The notes under the pieces are model-generated. The model searched no databases, had not been told where the DNA came from, and saw only the letters and a program-made list of their open reading frames with translations. Shown here piece by piece: positions 40,697 through 48,578 of a stretch of DNA of 64,000 bases. The stretch is taken from positions 62,001-126,000 of the forward strand of contig NZ_JAKHSK010000001.1 of NCBI RefSeq assembly GCF_023499215.1. Reading direction: 5' to 3'. Source of the stretch: Zunongwangia pacifica. Its GTDB lineage: Bacteria > Bacteroidota > Bacteroidia > Flavobacteriales > Flavobacteriaceae. Every line of letters begins with the position of its first letter. The first letter of the stretch is position 1. The translations under genes were made by a program, and so were the position numbers.

Positions 40697-42040
40697 ATGA
40701 GAAAGTCTTCTTTAATTGTACCAATTTCTATTTTAGTTCATTTATTTATTATAAATGCATCATTATATTTTCTCACCGCATCAACTTATTTAAGTCTGGT
40801 CTCTATTACGTATTATAATATAAGTTGGTTGTTAATTTCTTTTGCCCTTAACTTTTACCCTACTAAGAGGACTGAACGGTTTTTTACAAATTTTCATAAG
40901 CTACTTTATTTATTTATGATTTATACGTTAGCTTATTTTTCTAATTTAGCTTTTCGAGTAATAGATTATAGTGCTATTTATCAATTGAAGGTTCTATTGG
41001 TGGTTTTTGGTTCAATTACGGTATATCGTTGGATCTTTTATTATTTGCGAAATATCTACCGTGCAGAAGGAGGGAATTTAGCTAGTGTCGTTGTAATTGG
41101 TCGAGATCGAAAATTAAAAAAAATTAGACAAGTTTTCGATATGCCAGAACTTGGTTATAGGTATCTGGGGTATTTTGATAACAATAGCTCGAAGAGTATA
41201 ACTTATCTAGGCAAAATAGAAGATTGTATTCCGTACTTACGAAAAGAAAATGTCGAAGAAATATATTGTATGGCCTCCAGACTTACTTCCGAAGAACTCA
41301 GTAGTTTAATTAATTATGCCGATAACAATCTTAAACGTATAAAAATTATTCCGGATAATAAAGAGATTTATACTAGAGCTATGAATGTTGAGTTGTTTGG
41401 AAGTGTGCCGGTTTTGAATCTAAGAAAATTACCTTTGGATACGGATGTTGCTAAATATTCCAAGCGGGCATTTGATATTGTTTTTTCTTTATTGGTATGT
41501 ATTTTTATTCTTTCATGGTTAGTGCCTATTATTGGTGTCTTGATAAAGATAGAATCTAAAGGGCCTGTTTTTTTTAAACAAAAAAGACATGGTTTTAATA
41601 AAGAATCTTTCTTCTGTTATAAATTTCGGTCGATGGCGGTTAATAAAGAAGCGAATACCAAAATGATGACCAAGAATGATACCCGTTTGACTAAAATAGG
41701 TAAGTTTATTCGAAAAACGAGTATCGATGAATTACCTCAATTTATTAATGTGTTTAAAGGAGATATGAGTGTAGTTGGGCCGAGACCTCATATGGAAGCT
41801 CATACTAAAGAGTACCAACATTCCGTTGATAAATATTTAGTTCGTCATTTTGCTAAACCGGGTATTACAGGATTAGCTCAGGTTAAGGGGTATCGAGGAG
41901 AGATTGTACAGCAGTCTGATATTATAAATAGAACACGTTTAGATATTTTTTATGTTGAAAAATGGTCCCTGTTGTTAGATATAAAGATAATTGTTAAAAC
42001 CGTTCTAAACGCAATTAGAGGAGAAGAAAAAGCATATTAA
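40697..42040 (+). CDS. Polyprenyl-phosphate sugar phosphotransferase (priming enzyme, WcaJ type)
   Basis: 447 residues. Four N-terminal membrane helices lead into a Rossmann-like CoA-binding domain (SVVVIGRDRKLKKIRQVF), then the bacterial sugar transferase domain from about 255: KRAFDIVFSLLVCIFILSW, VFFKQKRHGFNKESFFCYKF, SIDELPQFINVFKGDMSVVG, RPHMEAH, and KPGITGLAQVKGYRGE. It transfers a hexose-1-phosphate to undecaprenyl phosphate and starts each repeat unit. Placed just ahead of the export genes. Confidence 0.92.
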   Translation: MRKSSLIVPISILVHLFIINASLYFLTASTYLSLVSITYYNISWLLISFALNFYPTKRTERFFTNFHKLLYLFMIYTLAYFSNLAFRVIDYSAIYQLKVLLVVFGSITVYRWIFYYLRNIYRAEGGNLASVVVIGRDRKLKKIRQVFDMPELGYRYLGYFDNNSSKSITYLGKIEDCIPYLRKENVEEIYCMASRLTSEELSSLINYADNNLKRIKIIPDNKEIYTRAMNVELFGSVPVLNLRKLPLDTDVAKYSKRAFDIVFSLLVCIFILSWLVPIIGVLIKIESKGPVFFKQKRHGFNKESFFCYKFRSMAVNKEANTKMMTKNDTRLTKIGKFIRKTSIDELPQFINVFKGDMSVVGPRPHMEAHTKEYQHSVDKYLVRHFAKPGITGLAQVKGYRGEIVQQSDIINRTRLDIFYVEKWSLLLDIKIIVKTVLNAIRGEEKAY

Positions 42041-42100: not shown

Positions 42101-42889
42101 TTGAAATTAAGTTTATTTTATTTTTTATTGATAGGTGTTCTTGTCACCTCTTGTGTGTCTCGAGAAGAAATTGTTTACTTCCAAGATATGGAAAATTTAC
42201 AAGTGCAAACTAATTCTACACAAACTTTTAATAACTTACAAATAAAGCCTAATGATAGGCTGGCTATTACTGTGTCTGCAGAAGAAATTGAAGCAACTAT
42301 GCCATTCAATTTACCATATCTAGGTAATAGCGTAGGAAGTCAGAATGGAGAAATTCGAGTAAGTGGTACACCAACTTTGCAAACCTATTTGGTAAATAGT
42401 GATGGAGAAATACAATTTCCGGTATTAGGTTCTTTAAAAGTAGCTGGTTTAGATCGGAAAGAAGTTTCTAAGAAATTAGAAAATGAAATAGCAGAATATG
42501 TACAAAACCCGATAGTGAATGTTCAAATAACAAATTTTCAAATTAGTGTGTTAGGAGAAGTGAATCGTCCCGGTACATTTGCTATTACCGATGAATATGT
42601 TAGTTTGCCTAAAGCATTGGGGCTAGCGGGTGACATGAGTATCTATGGAAAGCGTAAAAATGTTTTGGTAGTTAGAGAAAAAGAGAATGGGCAGAAAAAA
42701 TATGCTTATTTAGACTTAACAGATGCCAATGTCATCAATTCTCCATATTATTATTTACAACAAAACGATGTTGTATATGTTGAACCTAATGGACCACAAA
42801 GACAGTCTGCTAGTTACAACCGAAATGCTTCTGTATATATATCTATAGCTTCGGTTTTGGTTTCACTTGTCGTATTAATAACCCGATAA
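42101..42889 (+). CDS. Polysaccharide export lipoprotein (Wza family)
   Basis: 262 residues. The TTG start gives a lipoprotein signal peptide (LFYFLLIGVLVTSC, Cys18), which an internal ATG would lose, so TTG is preferred. The Poly_export domain follows (NDRLAITVSAEE, TYLVNSDGEIQFPVLGSLKV) and one SLBB domain (ISVLGEVNRPGTFAITDEY). A C-terminal hydrophobic helix (SVYISIASVLVSLVVLITR) would span the outer membrane as in Wza. It forms the export channel, working with Wzc encoded four bases downstream. Confidence 0.9.
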   Translation: MKLSLFYFLLIGVLVTSCVSREEIVYFQDMENLQVQTNSTQTFNNLQIKPNDRLAITVSAEEIEATMPFNLPYLGNSVGSQNGEIRVSGTPTLQTYLVNSDGEIQFPVLGSLKVAGLDRKEVSKKLENEIAEYVQNPIVNVQITNFQISVLGEVNRPGTFAITDEYVSLPKALGLAGDMSIYGKRKNVLVVREKENGQKKYAYLDLTDANVINSPYYYLQQNDVVYVEPNGPQRQSASYNRNASVYISIASVLVSLVVLITR

Positions 42890-42893
42890 TTTT

Positions 42894-45284
42894 ATGAACG
42901 AGAATACTAATTTCCAGGAAGAAGAAATTAACATTCGAGAAGAACTCGAGAAATATTTAAAATATTGGCCTTGGTTCGTAATGTCTGCTGGGATAGCGTT
43001 AATTCTGGCTTTTTTCTATTTAAAATTAGCAACACCAATTTATTCGACAACTGCTAGTATTATCATAAAAGATGAGGATACTAAATCTCCAGCAACTTCT
43101 GGTCTGTCTTCTTTTGCTGATTTAGGAGTACTCGAAGGTTTAAAAACAAGCAGTATCGAGAACGAGATTGGGTTGTTGGAATCTAAGCGGATGATGACTA
43201 AAACTATCAAATCTTTAGATTTAAATATTCAATATTATTACTCAGATTTTTTAATTACAAAAGAACTCTATAAAAATAACCCTTTTAAAGTTAGTATTTT
43301 AAGTCTTAATGATGAAGATTTAAATAAAGCTGTAGAAAATGAAATTAATTTTTTTACCATTAAAGAGAATAAAGAAGGTTTTGAAATTTATTCTGAAAAT
43401 ATTGATAAAAAGTTAAAGGGTAAATTTGGAGATCCTTTAAATATAGGTTTTGCGGATATAGTTATTCGAAAAAATACTAATTACATACAACCAGAAAAAG
43501 ATAGTGGGGAGTTTAGTTTTAAGATTTCCAACCTTGAAAATATCGTTGCGGTGTACAAATCAAAATTAAAAGTTGCATTGGTCGATGATAATTCAACTTT
43601 AATAGATCTAAGTTTAGATGATCATATTCCTGCAAAAGCTCAAGATATATTAGATCAATTAATAGTAGAGTATAATAAAGAAGCAATAATCGATAAAAAT
43701 TTAGTAGCTTCTAATACCGCTGAATTCATTGATGAACGCTTAAAAGTAATTAATTCAGAGTTAGATTCAGTTGAAATAAATAAAGAAGAATTTAAAGAAG
43801 ATAAAAAGCTAACTGATATAAAGGCTGAATCTGAGATTTTTTTAAATAACGCAAGTGATTTTAAAAAAGAGCGACAAAGAGTTACCACTCAATCGCAATT
43901 AGCAAAGGCGATGTTGGATTTTTTACAAAAAGGAGATAATTCGGATCTATTGCCTATGAATTTAGGAATAGAAGGAGAAGGTGTCAACCAACAGATTTCA
44001 GATTATAACGAATTAGTCTTACAGCGTAATCGAATTTTAGAATCCTCTACAGAAAAGAACCCAGTTATTAAAAATTTAGATCGTCAGATTAATCAAACAC
44101 GTTCTGTGGTTACGCAAAGTTTACAACGCTTAAAATCCAATTTAGATATATCGTTAAATGAGCTAGAAAATGAGTCAGAATTAATCCAATCTAGAATTTC
44201 TGATGTTCCATCTATGGAACGTACTTATCGAGGAATAGATCGTCAGCAACAAATTAAAGAAGCACTATATTTATTCTTACTGCAAAAAAGAGAAGAAAAT
44301 TCGTTATCATTAGCTGTCACGGCACCCAAAGCAAAAATTGTGGATAATGCTTATACTAACGTGAATCCCGTAGCTCCAAAATCTAAATTGGTATTGTTAG
44401 GAGGATTGGTAATAGGTTTGTTAATTCCATTTGGAATTATTTATGGTAAAAATCTTCTTAATAATAAGGTGAAGAATAGAGGGGATTTAGAAAGAAAAGC
44501 AAAACAAATTCCAATAGTTGGTGAAATTCCCAGAATTGATAAAAAAGAGAATCATTTAATCACCGAGGCAGATCGTTCGGTGTTAGCCGAGTCCTTTAGG
44601 ATTGCAATTACCAACATGCAGTATTTACTGATTAATAAAACTGATAAGCAAAAGGGGATTAAAATGTTGGTTACATCCACGGTTAAAGGAGAAGGGAAGA
44701 CGTTTACTTCTATAAACTTAGCATTGACTCTTGCGAATATGGGCAAAAAAGTAATTGTGGTAGGAGCAGATTTACGTAATCCTCAGCTGCAGCGGTATGA
44801 TGTGGGATCAAGGAAACACTTGGGGGTTAGTGATTATTTAATTAATGAAGATTTACAATTAAATAATCTTATTGAGCAAACGAAATTTAATAAGAATTTA
44901 GACTTTTTGACTTCAGGGAGCATACCTCCAAATCCTTCAGAATTATTAAGGCATCGTAGACTCGGGGAGATGTTGGGTATGCTAGAAGAGCAATACGATT
45001 ATATAATTCTTGATACAGCACCTTGTATGCTTGTCGCTGATACTTTCTTGATCAGCCAGTATGCTGATATTACGCTTTACGTGGTAAGGGCCTCATACAC
45101 AGAAAAAGCTTTATTGCAATTCCCAATTGATTCTAAGGAGGCAGGAAAGTTGCATGACATTAGTTTTGTGTTGAACGATGTGGACACCGCGAACTTTGGG
45201 TACTATGGGAATAAATATGGCTATTCGTATGGATATTCTGAGGATGAAAGTTTTATAGATAAAATCAAGAAGTATTTTGATTAA
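42894..45284 (+). CDS. Chain-length regulator and tyrosine kinase (Wzc, BY-kinase)
   Basis: 796 residues. The Wzz domain has membrane helices near 30-50 and 500-520 and a long coiled-coil periplasmic segment. The cytoplasmic kinase has Walker A VKGEGKT at about 597-603, Walker A' VVGADLRNPQ near 622 and Walker B IILDTAP near 703. The tail YYGNKYGYSYGY is the tyrosine cluster for autophosphorylation. It controls polymerisation and export with the Wza-like lipoprotein. No partner phosphatase gene is visible in the window. Confidence 0.92.
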   Translation: MNENTNFQEEEINIREELEKYLKYWPWFVMSAGIALILAFFYLKLATPIYSTTASIIIKDEDTKSPATSGLSSFADLGVLEGLKTSSIENEIGLLESKRMMTKTIKSLDLNIQYYYSDFLITKELYKNNPFKVSILSLNDEDLNKAVENEINFFTIKENKEGFEIYSENIDKKLKGKFGDPLNIGFADIVIRKNTNYIQPEKDSGEFSFKISNLENIVAVYKSKLKVALVDDNSTLIDLSLDDHIPAKAQDILDQLIVEYNKEAIIDKNLVASNTAEFIDERLKVINSELDSVEINKEEFKEDKKLTDIKAESEIFLNNASDFKKERQRVTTQSQLAKAMLDFLQKGDNSDLLPMNLGIEGEGVNQQISDYNELVLQRNRILESSTEKNPVIKNLDRQINQTRSVVTQSLQRLKSNLDISLNELENESELIQSRISDVPSMERTYRGIDRQQQIKEALYLFLLQKREENSLSLAVTAPKAKIVDNAYTNVNPVAPKSKLVLLGGLVIGLLIPFGIIYGKNLLNNKVKNRGDLERKAKQIPIVGEIPRIDKKENHLITEADRSVLAESFRIAITNMQYLLINKTDKQKGIKMLVTSTVKGEGKTFTSINLALTLANMGKKVIVVGADLRNPQLQRYDVGSRKHLGVSDYLINEDLQLNNLIEQTKFNKNLDFLTSGSIPPNPSELLRHRRLGEMLGMLEEQYDYIILDTAPCMLVADTFLISQYADITLYVVRASYTEKALLQFPIDSKEAGKLHDISFVLNDVDTANFGYYGNKYGYSYGYSEDESFIDKIKKYFD

Positions 45285-45501: not shown

Positions 45502-46593
45502 ATGCTTATGAAAACGAATTTTAACAATTCATGGCGAAGAGCGGCCTTTTTCGCTTTTTTAATTTTGACATCAGTTACATTGTATAATTGTAGTGATGAT
45601 GATGATAACCCTGGGCCAGTTATTACTGGAGAAGAAGTAAAAAAGGAATTTGAGGAAGGTGTTGAAGAAATGCCTGAATTAGAGGATGAGGATCCTACAG
45701 TAACTGAGCCTGATGTTGAAGCTGAGGTTGCTACCCCTGAGGCAACAACTACTGCAGCGGCAGATTTTAAAGCAGCAACAAGTACTGATGATTTGAGTGC
45801 AGAAAGTAAGGCAATTTATAATAGTCTTCAAACAACTAATGCAAATGTTCCTCAAAGTGCAAAAACTGTTGCTTCTACTTTGACAGAAGATCAGATTGCA
45901 GGGATGTTAGATATTGATCAGGATTTACCTTCTGATGTTCAAGCTGATGTTGATGCTATCATTGCGGCTATACCGGCTGATATTATGGCTTTGTTACCAG
46001 AAATCACCTTTGATTTTGGAACTAGCGCAACGGCTTCTGTATATGGGAAAGATGGTATTCAAGTATTGAATGTAGGTGTTGAATTGGATCCTGTAGCTCA
46101 GGTTGTGGATGCACCTTGTGAAGATATATATCGTGAGGCTTATGATGAAATAATTGCTACCCGTCAAGCAACACGTGATGATCAATTAGCAACCATTTTA
46201 GCTAACTTTAATAGAAGAATGGAAGCTGCAGGTACTAGATATACAACAAGAATAGCGGAAATTGATGGTGATGCTGATGCCTTCGCTGCTGAAATTGAAA
46301 TAGTTGCTGATGAATTTTTAGCCGCTGCAGCAGGTTTAGACGTTGCTGAGGAAGAATTAAAGTTGATGGCATTTTTAGTTGCTTTGGAAGGAAGAATGGA
46401 AATTCAGACTTGGTATGATGCTGCTGAAACTGTTATCAATGCAGCAAAAACTACTGAAGAGGCTGCTACTCAGACAAGAAAAGACGAGAAGGATGCTGCT
46501 GTGACTGCCAATTATCAGATAGCTAAAGAAGATGCAGATGCTATTTTAGCCGATGGTTTGGCCAACTGTCATAATCAGGGATCTGGTTCTTAG
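45502..46593 (+). CDS. Probable surface-exposed Ala-rich lipoprotein
   Basis: 363 residues, not recognised as a known family. A signal peptide ends at LYNC (Cys30), and the next residues are SDDDD, the acidic pattern described in Bacteroidetes as a signal for moving lipoproteins to the cell surface. Residues 40-110 are acidic and Ala/Thr-rich, low complexity; about 215-350 looks alpha-helical with many Ala, Glu and Asp (coiled-coil-like). Two further cysteines (PCEDIY and NCHNQ) could form a disulfide. Start may be the ATG at 45502 or at 45508. It stands between wzc and the two YjbH halves, suggesting a role in polysaccharide export or anchoring, which is inference. Confidence 0.75.
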   Translation: MLMKTNFNNSWRRAAFFAFLILTSVTLYNCSDDDDNPGPVITGEEVKKEFEEGVEEMPELEDEDPTVTEPDVEAEVATPEATTTAAADFKAATSTDDLSAESKAIYNSLQTTNANVPQSAKTVASTLTEDQIAGMLDIDQDLPSDVQADVDAIIAAIPADIMALLPEITFDFGTSATASVYGKDGIQVLNVGVELDPVAQVVDAPCEDIYREAYDEIIATRQATRDDQLATILANFNRRMEAAGTRYTTRIAEIDGDADAFAAEIEIVADEFLAAAAGLDVAEEELKLMAFLVALEGRMEIQTWYDAAETVINAAKTTEEAATQTRKDEKDAAVTANYQIAKEDADAILADGLANCHNQGSGS

Positions 46594-46627: not shown

Positions 46628-47458
46628 ATGTTACAAGAAAACCTGTTGTTTAAATCTTTTATTAAAACAACAGGTTTTTTGTTTTTATTGCTTTTGTCTA
46701 TTTACGGATATAGTCAGAACAATTTTTTAGGTAAGCCAGGCTACATGACCATCCCTACCGCAGATTGGAAGGATGGTCATGAACTTGGCTTTTCTTATGG
46801 TTTTATACCAGCGGCCTATTCAGATGATACTTTTAGTCCAGGATCGGAAGAAAACGATGTTGATGTTTATAGTGTTAGAGTTAAGCTTACCCAGTTTATG
46901 GAGGTTAATTTTGGGATTTTTTATCGGTCCGAAATTTCTGATAAGATTGGAGTGGGGGATCGTCAGTTAGATTTTAGGTTCAGGATACTAAAAGAAAAGC
47001 AGTATTGGCCTGCCATTGTTTTAGGGTGGACACCTCCCGGGTCTAGGTCTCCTGTTATTTCACATGATTATTTAGTGGCTACTAAGAATTTTCAATCCTC
47101 ATTAGGGAAATTTCAGGTTTCTTTAGGTTATGGTTCTCCTTATTTTCTTTATAGAAATTTAGAAGATGATAACAATTTTTGGGAAAGTCTGCAGTTTAGA
47201 AAAAAGCAATCGTTTGGCAATAATACATATTTAACAGGTGTTTATGGTGGGGTTTCTTACGAACCTTTACATTTTTTAGGAGCGAGTCTGGAATATAATA
47301 CTTCTACCTTTAATGCCGGTGTGTATGCAAAACTATGGAATGAGCACATTATGTTGCAAGCCTATACTTTTGAAGGAAAAGAGCTAGCTTTTAATATTAA
47401 CCTGCAATTTTCACTACATTTTTTACCCAGATCATTAAGAAGATATGAAAAGAAATAA
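46628..47458 (+). CDS. YjbH/GfcD-like outer-membrane barrel, N-terminal half
   Basis: 276 residues with a signal peptide (FLFLLLLSIYGYSQ). The first mature block NFLGKPGYMTIPTADWKDGH matches the N-terminal signature of the YjbH family (a 'G...TPTA...DG' pattern), and the rest is alternating beta strands (FRFRILKEKQYWPAIVLGWT, FQVSLGYGSP, INLQFSLHF). In proteobacteria this is only the first half of a single ~700-residue protein of Yjb and group 4 capsule systems. The downstream gene supplies the second half and overlaps by 14 bases. Confidence 0.78.
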   Translation: MLQENLLFKSFIKTTGFLFLLLLSIYGYSQNNFLGKPGYMTIPTADWKDGHELGFSYGFIPAAYSDDTFSPGSEENDVDVYSVRVKLTQFMEVNFGIFYRSEISDKIGVGDRQLDFRFRILKEKQYWPAIVLGWTPPGSRSPVISHDYLVATKNFQSSLGKFQVSLGYGSPYFLYRNLEDDNNFWESLQFRKKQSFGNNTYLTGVYGGVSYEPLHFLGASLEYNTSTFNAGVYAKLWNEHIMLQAYTFEGKELAFNINLQFSLHFLPRSLRRYEKK

Positions 47459-48578
47459 TGTCCTTTTTGTTTTATTCTTTCTGATCACCTTGGCATTTTC
47501 AGGTCAGGAGCTGGAAAAAGCACTCTATGATGAGGGTTTTGAAAATGTGCTTATAGAAGAAAAAGAAGATACTCTAAAAATATTTTTTGAGTTCAGGGAG
47601 TTCAGGAGTCCATATCATAGTATGCGCTTTGCAAATGATATAGTCTCAAGCTTTGTAGAGGGAAAGCATATAGAATGGATTCCGTTGCACCATAATGTGC
47701 CTATTGGGAAATATAATGCAGATTCCTATAATTTTAATACCCTATCTTCTGCGGATTTAGAATTTTATAATGCAAATAATAGACCCTTTAAAAATTATCG
47801 ATTTAATATTAGGATAAGGCCTTTTGTGGCTGCCAGGTTTGGATATTATTCGAGTCCATTTCAAACGGTGTTTGATGCTATTGTAGATACTCGAATTTAT
47901 CTGGCCAAAGGGTTAAGCGCACAAACCGGTTTGGTTATTCCTATTCAAAATTCTTTAAATAATACGAGTATGGAGTCTCGTGTTGCTCCTAGTATGATTA
48001 GTTATTTTACCCAATTTAAGCCTGGGCATTTCGCTAATATTTCCTATGGCACCTATCATAACGATCGCTACGGTCTGGATGTGCAATATCGATATGGGCT
48101 GCCCTCTAAAAATTGGAGTGTAGGTATAGAAGCTGGTTTAACGGGATTTTATTATGAGGATGGGTTTAGGGATGTTATATTCTCAAATATGAGTAAAGTA
48201 CATTTTTTGGCAGACATCGAGTATCATTTACCGATAGAAAACCTTAATGTGAGGGCAAGTGTAGGTCGATTTATTTATGAGGATTTTGGCGGTCGGGTAG
48301 ATCTTATAAAACAATTTGGACTTGTTGATGTAGGTCTTTTTGGTACGTATACCCAAAATGGGGCTACGGCTGGTTTTCAATTTGCGATCCCTATTTTTCC
48401 TGGTAATATTTTTAAAACTAAAAAAGTTCAGCTTAGAACTACCGAGGAGTTTCGATGGGAATACACCTATAATAACGAAGATCGTGTAGGTCTTAAATAT
48501 AGAATGGGAGCTCCAAGGCTGGTAGATGTCTTGAGGCAATATCGTGTTGATTTTATTCAGTCTTTAAAGGAGCAGTAG
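47445..48578 (+). CDS. YjbH/GfcD-like outer-membrane barrel, C-terminal half
   Basis: 377 residues. It has its own signal peptide (MKRNNVLFVLFFLITLAFSG), then a short alpha/beta segment (1-110) and a beta-rich domain resembling the C-terminal half of YjbH: RIRPFVAARFGYYSSPFQ, GLSAQTGLVIPIQNS, SYGTYHNDRYGLDVQYRY, ADIEYHLPIENLNVRASVGR and GFQFAIPIFPG. The own signal peptide shows that this is a separately secreted protein and not a frameshifted gene. It probably pairs with the preceding barrel in the outer membrane. Confidence 0.75.
   Translation: MKRNNVLFVLFFLITLAFSGQELEKALYDEGFENVLIEEKEDTLKIFFEFREFRSPYHSMRFANDIVSSFVEGKHIEWIPLHHNVPIGKYNADSYNFNTLSSADLEFYNANNRPFKNYRFNIRIRPFVAARFGYYSSPFQTVFDAIVDTRIYLAKGLSAQTGLVIPIQNSLNNTSMESRVAPSMISYFTQFKPGHFANISYGTYHNDRYGLDVQYRYGLPSKNWSVGIEAGLTGFYYEDGFRDVIFSNMSKVHFLADIEYHLPIENLNVRASVGRFIYEDFGGRVDLIKQFGLVDVGLFGTYTQNGATAGFQFAIPIFPGNIFKTKKVQLRTTEEFRWEYTYNNEDRVGLKYRMGAPRLVDVLRQYRVDFIQSLKEQ

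Follow-up and report, generated by a model that had tools for sequence, protein, structure and literature searches.

The window analysed here is a stretch of 64,000 nucleotides from the marine bacterium Zunongwangia pacifica. An OPX gene, a wzc-like gene and a pair of genes related to yjbH sit at the end of an exopolysaccharide locus, with a lipoprotein gene (LP) directly before the pair. The features considered below are:

42101-42889, + strand: OPX (Wza-like) polysaccharide export lipoprotein, 262 aa, with Poly_export and one SLBB domain
42894-45284, + strand: Wzc-like polysaccharide co-polymerase / tyrosine autokinase, 796 aa, recognised by Pfam and NCBIfam models
45502-46593, + strand: LP, lipoprotein of an undescribed family (A5, n = 27), 363 aa, AlphaFold pLDDT 87.4
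46567-46581, + strand: codons of the CHNQG motif, LP residues 356-360, near the LP C-terminus
46628-47458, + strand: YjbH-N, 276 aa, the YjbH half with the FapF-like beta-barrel; signal-like N-terminus of its own, PF06082 match
47445-48578, + strand: YjbH-C, 377 aa, the YjbH half with the alpha/beta domain and the C-terminal beta-barrel; signal-like N-terminus of its own, PF06082 match
47445-47458, + strand: 14-bp overlap of the YjbH-N and YjbH-C genes, in different frames, the same in Zunongwangia atlantica

Two adjacent genes match the two halves of YjbH

The original prediction described two adjacent ORFs, overlapping by 14 bp, as the N- and C-terminal parts of the outer-membrane protein YjbH/GfcD. 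The ORFs lie at 46628-47458 and 47445-48578, in different frames, and both match the YjbH family profile PF06082 above the Pfam gathering cut-off of 24 bits. YjbH-N aligns to profile positions 3-245 of 658 (58.7 bits, E 6.4e-16) and YjbH-C to positions 479-598 of 658 (28.8 bits, E 7.6e-7). Profiles of the two half-families, each with the window sequence first (A6, 35 N halves; A1, 18 C halves), cover complementary regions of E. coli K-12 YjbH: the N profile aligns to residues 28-276 (prob 98.5, E 1.7e-15) and the C profile to residues 303-655, with the alpha/beta part included (prob 98.2, E 2.9e-14). Residues 277-302 and both ends of the E. coli protein fall outside these alignments. In the window's 5.1-Mb genome, PF06082 has two matches at E <= 0.001, YjbH-N and YjbH-C. 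A single chain carrying both barrels, as in YjbH/GfcD, is absent from the window, which has two ORFs in different frames. On this profile evidence the double-barrel protein YjbH/GfcD is encoded in the window as two separate proteins, one per half.

The split is not a frameshift

A slight overlap of ORFs in different frames would also result if the pair were a degraded or mis-sequenced single gene, the split then being biologically meaningless. However, Zunongwangia atlantica has the same gene pair with the same 14-bp overlap, with protein identities to the window of 81% (N) and 83% (C). Between the two species dN/dS (Nei-Gojobori) is low, 0.095 for the N and 0.057 for the C gene (0.27 for the upstream lipoprotein), and by this computation both halves are under purifying selection. 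The second protein has a signal-like N-terminus of its own, as had been predicted. We looked for such N-termini in the named loci, 37 loci in 35 genomes obtained by scanning species genomes with four close C halves as queries. The N-terminus carries a hydrophobic run (mean Kyte-Doolittle value >= 1.9 over 12 residues, an uncalibrated threshold and not a signal-peptide predictor) in 33 of 34 unfused N halves and 29 of 35 unfused C halves. Two of the six C halves that miss the threshold (L112, L115) have over-extended mechanical ORF starts. The junctions of two natural fusions, described below, reach only 0.46 and 0.65, below the threshold. The halves are unfused in 35/37 named loci, and their order and strand vary elsewhere in the phylum. 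The shared overlap, the dN/dS values and the N-terminal hydrophobic runs rule out a frameshift or pseudogene, and we leave that reading next to no weight.

Predicted structure of the two barrels

The model was made for the Fibrella fusion (633 aa) from 63 aligned rows, both window halves among them; the window proteins themselves were not folded, and a few ends of half-length rows are misplaced in the alignment. The model (mean pLDDT 88.7, pTM 0.79) runs from a barrel (residues 48-255) through a linker (261-276, pLDDT < 50) to an alpha/beta domain (285-369), followed by a second barrel (379-599). The barrel-alpha/beta-barrel fold of YjbH/GfcD is thus predicted for this fused homologue. By our own count from the DSSP line, the N barrel has 14 strand elements, about 12 of them long, and the C barrel 15, with 12 of >= 7 residues.

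The closest solved structure to the N barrel of the fusion is FapF (5o68; Z 17.0, rmsd 4.4, 202 residues), with KdgM next. The C part, which was barely tested, matches OmpG (Z 10.7), CymA (9.8), PelB (9.2) and BcsC (8.7). PgaA is not in the best 50 structural matches listed for the fusion and may still match. A sequence-profile search found no solved relative of the C half at E <= 10.

It had also been suggested that the split may reveal a domain boundary of the family. That boundary is not new: the layout of the fused homologue is that already proposed for GfcD. The AlphaFold model of GfcD by Larson et al. has a barrel, a linker, an alpha/beta domain and a barrel (PMC8592465), so the linker between two barrels had been put forward there, and the barrel-alpha/beta-barrel layout of GfcD/YjbH was proposed from contact maps and AlphaFold (PMC8592465, PMC9603273). 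A single 26-stranded barrel is given as a topology of GfcD too (PMC8592465). Limited proteolysis of GfcD yielded two stable fragments of ~30 kDa, possible support for two barrels (PMC8592465).

Distribution of the halves in Bacteroidota

A profile search of 395 Bacteroidota genomes found the C half in 20, of which 17 had supplied profile rows and three were new; one match (G366) is a contig-end fragment. In none of these 20 genomes do the N and C halves form a single open frame. They share a frame in G436, where a stop separates the two and the C half starts independently. The N half is also found in 20/395 genomes at >= 30 bits (single-stretch Pfam score), a line set after the scores were seen (lowest above, 30.8; next below, 25.6). 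One genome with a member of a single-barrel subgroup (G151) reaches 30.1 bits only with stretches summed and was left out of this count. Both halves are present in 18 genomes against 1 expected by chance (hypergeometric, 6e-27, uncorrected for kinship). The C half occurs without an N half at >= 30 bits in G077 and G366, the latter with the contig-end fragment, and the N half without a C half in G197 and G416. Among near relatives of the window's host, the family is present in 2/60 genomes, the window's own included.

The arrangement of the halves in the 18 shared genomes varies. N precedes C in five (G000, G246, G305, G267, G436), C precedes N with 1.2-1.3 kb between them in three (G064, G145, G236), and the halves are convergent in two (G298, G349). 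In the remaining eight they are on different contigs or far apart (G093, G105, G294, G295, G389, G417, G449, G244). The clear unlinked case is G244, with the halves ~0.98 Mb apart on one contig. In G417, G449, G389 and G093 the distance, judged from contig ends, exceeds 10 kb; in G105 and G295 the halves are on separate draft contigs and may really be linked. In G294 (L057) YjbH-N directly follows Wzc and OPX genes, and YjbH-C is on another contig.

A further N-half survey with a larger alignment (A2; 109/395 genomes) was dropped, as A2 by eye includes a related but distinct single-barrel subgroup of ~260 aa; one locus with undetermined bases (L063) was kept in A2 only. By eye, L067, L069, L060, L072 and similar loci encode this distinct protein, which is weakly YjbH-N-like. 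It is present in many Bacteroidota, mostly as one copy per genome; its scores are close to the YjbH cut-off or slightly above it, and it is liable to be annotated as YjbH.

Split is the usual state of YjbH in the sampled Bacteroidota. The proposal of a Bacteroidetes version of the protein holds to this extent, but the form it takes differs between genomes: the halves vary in order and strand, and there are unlinked pairs as well as two fusions.

Fused forms and possible joint action of the halves

The named loci come from Flavobacteriaceae, Cyclobacteriaceae, Spirosomataceae and related Cytophagales. The halves are separate genes within the locus in 34 of the 37, and the ORFs as called overlap in 27 of these 34 (four of the 27 with over-extended starts). 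In Lunatimonas (L092) the N half is on another contig. A fused YjbH is encoded in two loci, of Fibrella forsythiae (633 aa) and of a record titled Flavobacterium sp. SUN052 (648 aa), and a Pfam search found no second YjbH copy in either genome. The survey of split versus fused forms that had been suggested for the phylum thus gives 0/20 C-half genomes with the halves in one frame and 2/37 named loci with a fusion.

On the C-half tree (n = 54) the two fusions do not group together: each is nested within split relatives, and starred branches separate them. By parsimony this nesting implies two re-fusions, and secondary re-fusion is the simplest reading of both; repeated splitting of a fused ancestor is a possible alternative. 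E. coli YjbH has a very long branch and an unsure placement on this tree, which bears on the ancestral state. The SUN052 gene (L105:9086-11032) clusters with Spirosoma validum; the title of the record may be a misidentification, or the gene may have been transferred. On plasmids, 194 records match E. coli YjbH, mostly from Rhodobacterales-type hosts and enterics. Among the 30 of these 194 that were listed, 29 are uninterrupted matches with >= 94% cover, that is, fused, and one has 19% cover.

Do the separate halves work together? They might be independent, YjbH-C serving an exopolysaccharide and YjbH-N exporting or displaying a protein, linked only via a common extracellular matrix. The genomes in which N and C are apart (by ~0.98 Mb in G244), the N half placed beside Wzc and OPX with its C half on another contig (G294), the resemblance of N to the amyloid secretion barrel FapF, and the separate roles raised for the two barrels of GfcD (PMC9603273) all suit this reading. 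However, the 18 genomes common to the sets of 20 N and 20 C halves favour joint action, as do the two separately placed N-then-C fusions. Also, no FapC-like substrate was identified here, although no dedicated profile search was made for one, and LP is predicted to be helical. We consider independent halves rather doubtful. A putative physical two-part complex of YjbH-N and YjbH-C, supported by their co-occurrence and by the fused forms nested among split ones, is the reading carried forward.

A coiled-coil lipoprotein encoded before the pair

Two features were missing from the original prediction, namely the lipoprotein at 45502-46593 and the absence of GfcB/GfcC. The LP gene is 34 bp upstream of YjbH-N. 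An HMM of the LP family, made from the 27 members of A5 (26 loci and the window), finds LP in 35 of the 37 named loci, 26 of them by construction and nine new. Of the two loci without it, L087 is truncated by the end of its contig, and the flank of L105 contains no LP. Full-length LP is found in 3/395 genomes of the phylum draw (G000, G246, G305), all with a C half, and 17 of the 20 C-half genomes are without it. Five weaker partial matches in the 395 genomes, one in a C-half genome, are probably due to chance.

In LP a lipobox-like Cys30 precedes SDDDD; the protein further comprises a helical domain, a disordered segment (176-202) and a two-helix hairpin, whose helices are ~75 residues each in the AlphaFold model (pLDDT 87.4). 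The SDDDD stretch resembles surface-export signals of lipoproteins in Flavobacteriia. Residues C356, H357, Q359 and G360, together with Cys206, are invariant in the 27 aligned members. A disulfide between Cys206 and Cys356 is plausible, as both are invariant and the model places them at the hairpin's open end. The motif CH[ND]QG lies within 25 residues of the C-terminus in 33 of the 35 LP sequences, and the other two end in CEEQHDQG; the DNA pattern for CHNQGxxG occurs once in the window's genome.

In searches against Pfam and NCBIfam, no member was seen over a curated Pfam cut-off and no listed model matches more than 1/27 members at E <= 0.01. The LP model has no Foldseek match in the PDB at E <= 0.001, and the sequence profile has weak matches of coiled-coil type only (best E 0.006); neither result is proof of a new fold. 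The possibility that LP is a FapC-like amyloid substrate of the N barrel was considered and is disfavoured by the helical model.

Neighbouring export genes

The window OPX matches PF02563 (E 1.5e-18) and PF22461 (E 2e-7), with nothing else over the Pfam cut-offs. At E <= 10 no Wza_C was reported in it, in a search whose HMMER filters remove the majority of weak matches. Its other features are a lipobox-like LVTSC and a hydrophobic stretch at the C-terminus, which could be membrane-spanning in its own right. With Poly_export and SLBB only, and no Wza_C or GfcC domain credible at E <= 10, it has the composition of a Class 3 OPX, and its 262 aa compare with a Class 3 median of 256 aa (PMC9603273). 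Class 3 proteins are without a membrane-spanning part and are thought to pair with a barrel porin; the table in PMC9603273 lists no GfcD/YjbH homologue near their genes. The Wzc-like kinase has Wzz, GNVR and AAA_31 over Pfam cut-offs and the NCBIfam model eps_fam (TIGR01007) over its own. The same exopolysaccharide locus contains a sugar transferase gene (40697-42040) and, by eye, glycosyltransferase- and flippase-like ORFs.

The pair had been predicted to work with Wza- and Wzc-like neighbours. Such neighbours are present in the window and, within the fetched flanks, in 15/37 named loci, where many flanks end at contig ends, but in only 2/40 fetched phylum loci (L038, L057; queries, the window's proteins). 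In the 15 named loci, the OPX ORF starts <= 30 bp after the C gene in six and overlaps it in one (mechanical starts). GfcC (YjbG, PF06251) and GfcB (YjbF, PF11102) have 0 matches at E <= 0.001 in the window's genome, with a positive E. coli control. A protein of ~235 aa, barrel-like by eye, is encoded in 20/37 named loci (L098:8278-9000, L101:8344-9039, L080 from 8517, and others). Its gene usually lies between those of the lipoprotein and YjbH-N, where the window has none; two members tested have no Pfam match at E <= 0.01.

These neighbours bear on the route of the polymer. The pair and LP may instead be an outer-membrane assembly or capsule-anchoring module, the polymer leaving through an OPX ring or another porin. 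The C-terminal hydrophobic stretch of the OPX fits such a role, as do the presence of the C half in only 20/395 Bacteroidota and the case of E. coli, where the Class 1 protein GfcE is the presumed portal and the role of GfcD is open (PMC8592465). Against it stand the lack of a reported Wza_C in the OPX at E <= 10 and the OPX ORFs that closely follow or overlap the C gene in seven of the 15 loci. We regard an anchoring module as improbable and favour export through YjbH-C.

A model for polymer exit in the window's branch

We propose that YjbH-N and YjbH-C act together in trans in the outer membrane, as part of what would be an exopolysaccharide export system of the Wzx/Wzy type. Wzc, together with the short OPX lipoprotein, would in the window's branch bring the polymer to the outer membrane, where the alpha/beta domain of YjbH-C would dock on the OPX and the YjbH-C barrel would form the exit pore. 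YjbH-C is the candidate exit because no outer-membrane-spanning Wza_C helix was detected in the OPX. YjbH-N would be an accessory barrel, and LP may stand in for the missing GfcB/GfcC. Because LP is found in 3/20 C-half genomes and OPX and Wzc in 2/40 phylum loci, this mechanism could apply at most to the window's branch. We give the explanation as a whole, with the split halves acting in trans, the C barrel as exit and N and LP as accessories in that branch, a probability of about 0.55. A stronger version is tentative and falls well short of even odds: YjbH-C and YjbH-N, in trans with LP and its CH(N/D)QG motif, would replace GfcBCD and supply the exit pore of a Class 3 OPX, in a phylum that shifts between split, unlinked and fused states.

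What is known of double-barrel outer-membrane proteins in the YjbH family comes from prediction, and GfcD/YjbH has no settled function (PMC8592465). The natural splitting, unlinking and fusion of YjbH appear to be new; our literature searches found nothing on a split YjbH or on the C-terminal tail of LP. As each barrel is kept as a protein of its own, each can be deleted, purified and solved alone. Paired with an OPX of Class 3 type, YjbH-C becomes a testable candidate for polymer exit where the OPX is without a membrane-spanning helix, and LP, with its nearly constant C-terminal motif, is an unstudied part with a testable role.

Comparison with known systems

Among solved structures, the plugged barrel of FapF, from the functional amyloid system of Pseudomonas, shares its fold with the fused homologue's N barrel (Z 17.0), a fold likeness only. 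The alignment starts at FapF residue 93, within the plug (89-101; PMC5557850). Unlike FapF, the fused-homologue model is without a periplasmic coiled coil before the barrel; identity is 11-17%, and no Fap partner was identified here (no profile search was made for one). The exopolysaccharide exit barrels of PelB and BcsC align to the C barrel with middling scores (Z 9.2 and 8.7). PgaA-like homology is reported for the C-terminal halves of GfcD and YjbH (PMC9603273). Wzp barrels have 18 strands (PMC9603273), whereas the modelled C barrel has ~12 long ones. In Bacteroides thetaiotaomicron, the consecutive tags BT0292 and BT0293 are both annotated as YjbH domain-containing (PMC10434189), and by annotation alone they are possibly the same split pair.

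With E. coli YjbH/GfcD there is homology over both barrels and the alpha/beta domain, and the fused homologue has the layout of the GfcD AlphaFold model (PMC8592465). As in the E. coli group 4 capsule locus, a Wza-like OPX and a Wzc-like kinase are encoded nearby (window 42101-45284). The systems differ in that the GfcB and GfcC partners of the E. coli Yjb and group 4 capsule systems were not found in the window's genome, a new lipoprotein family is linked to the pair in the window's branch, and E. coli GfcE is a Class 1 OPX (PMC9603273) whereas that of the window is Class 3-like. They also differ in the number of genes, one in E. coli and two in the window. One chain in E. coli versus two proteins here and in most of the relatives in which YjbH was found suggests that the two barrels are separable and re-joinable parts. 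The conclusion we regard as most secure is that of a modular YjbH double barrel, whose barrels are kept separate, co-occur unlinked and are also joined.
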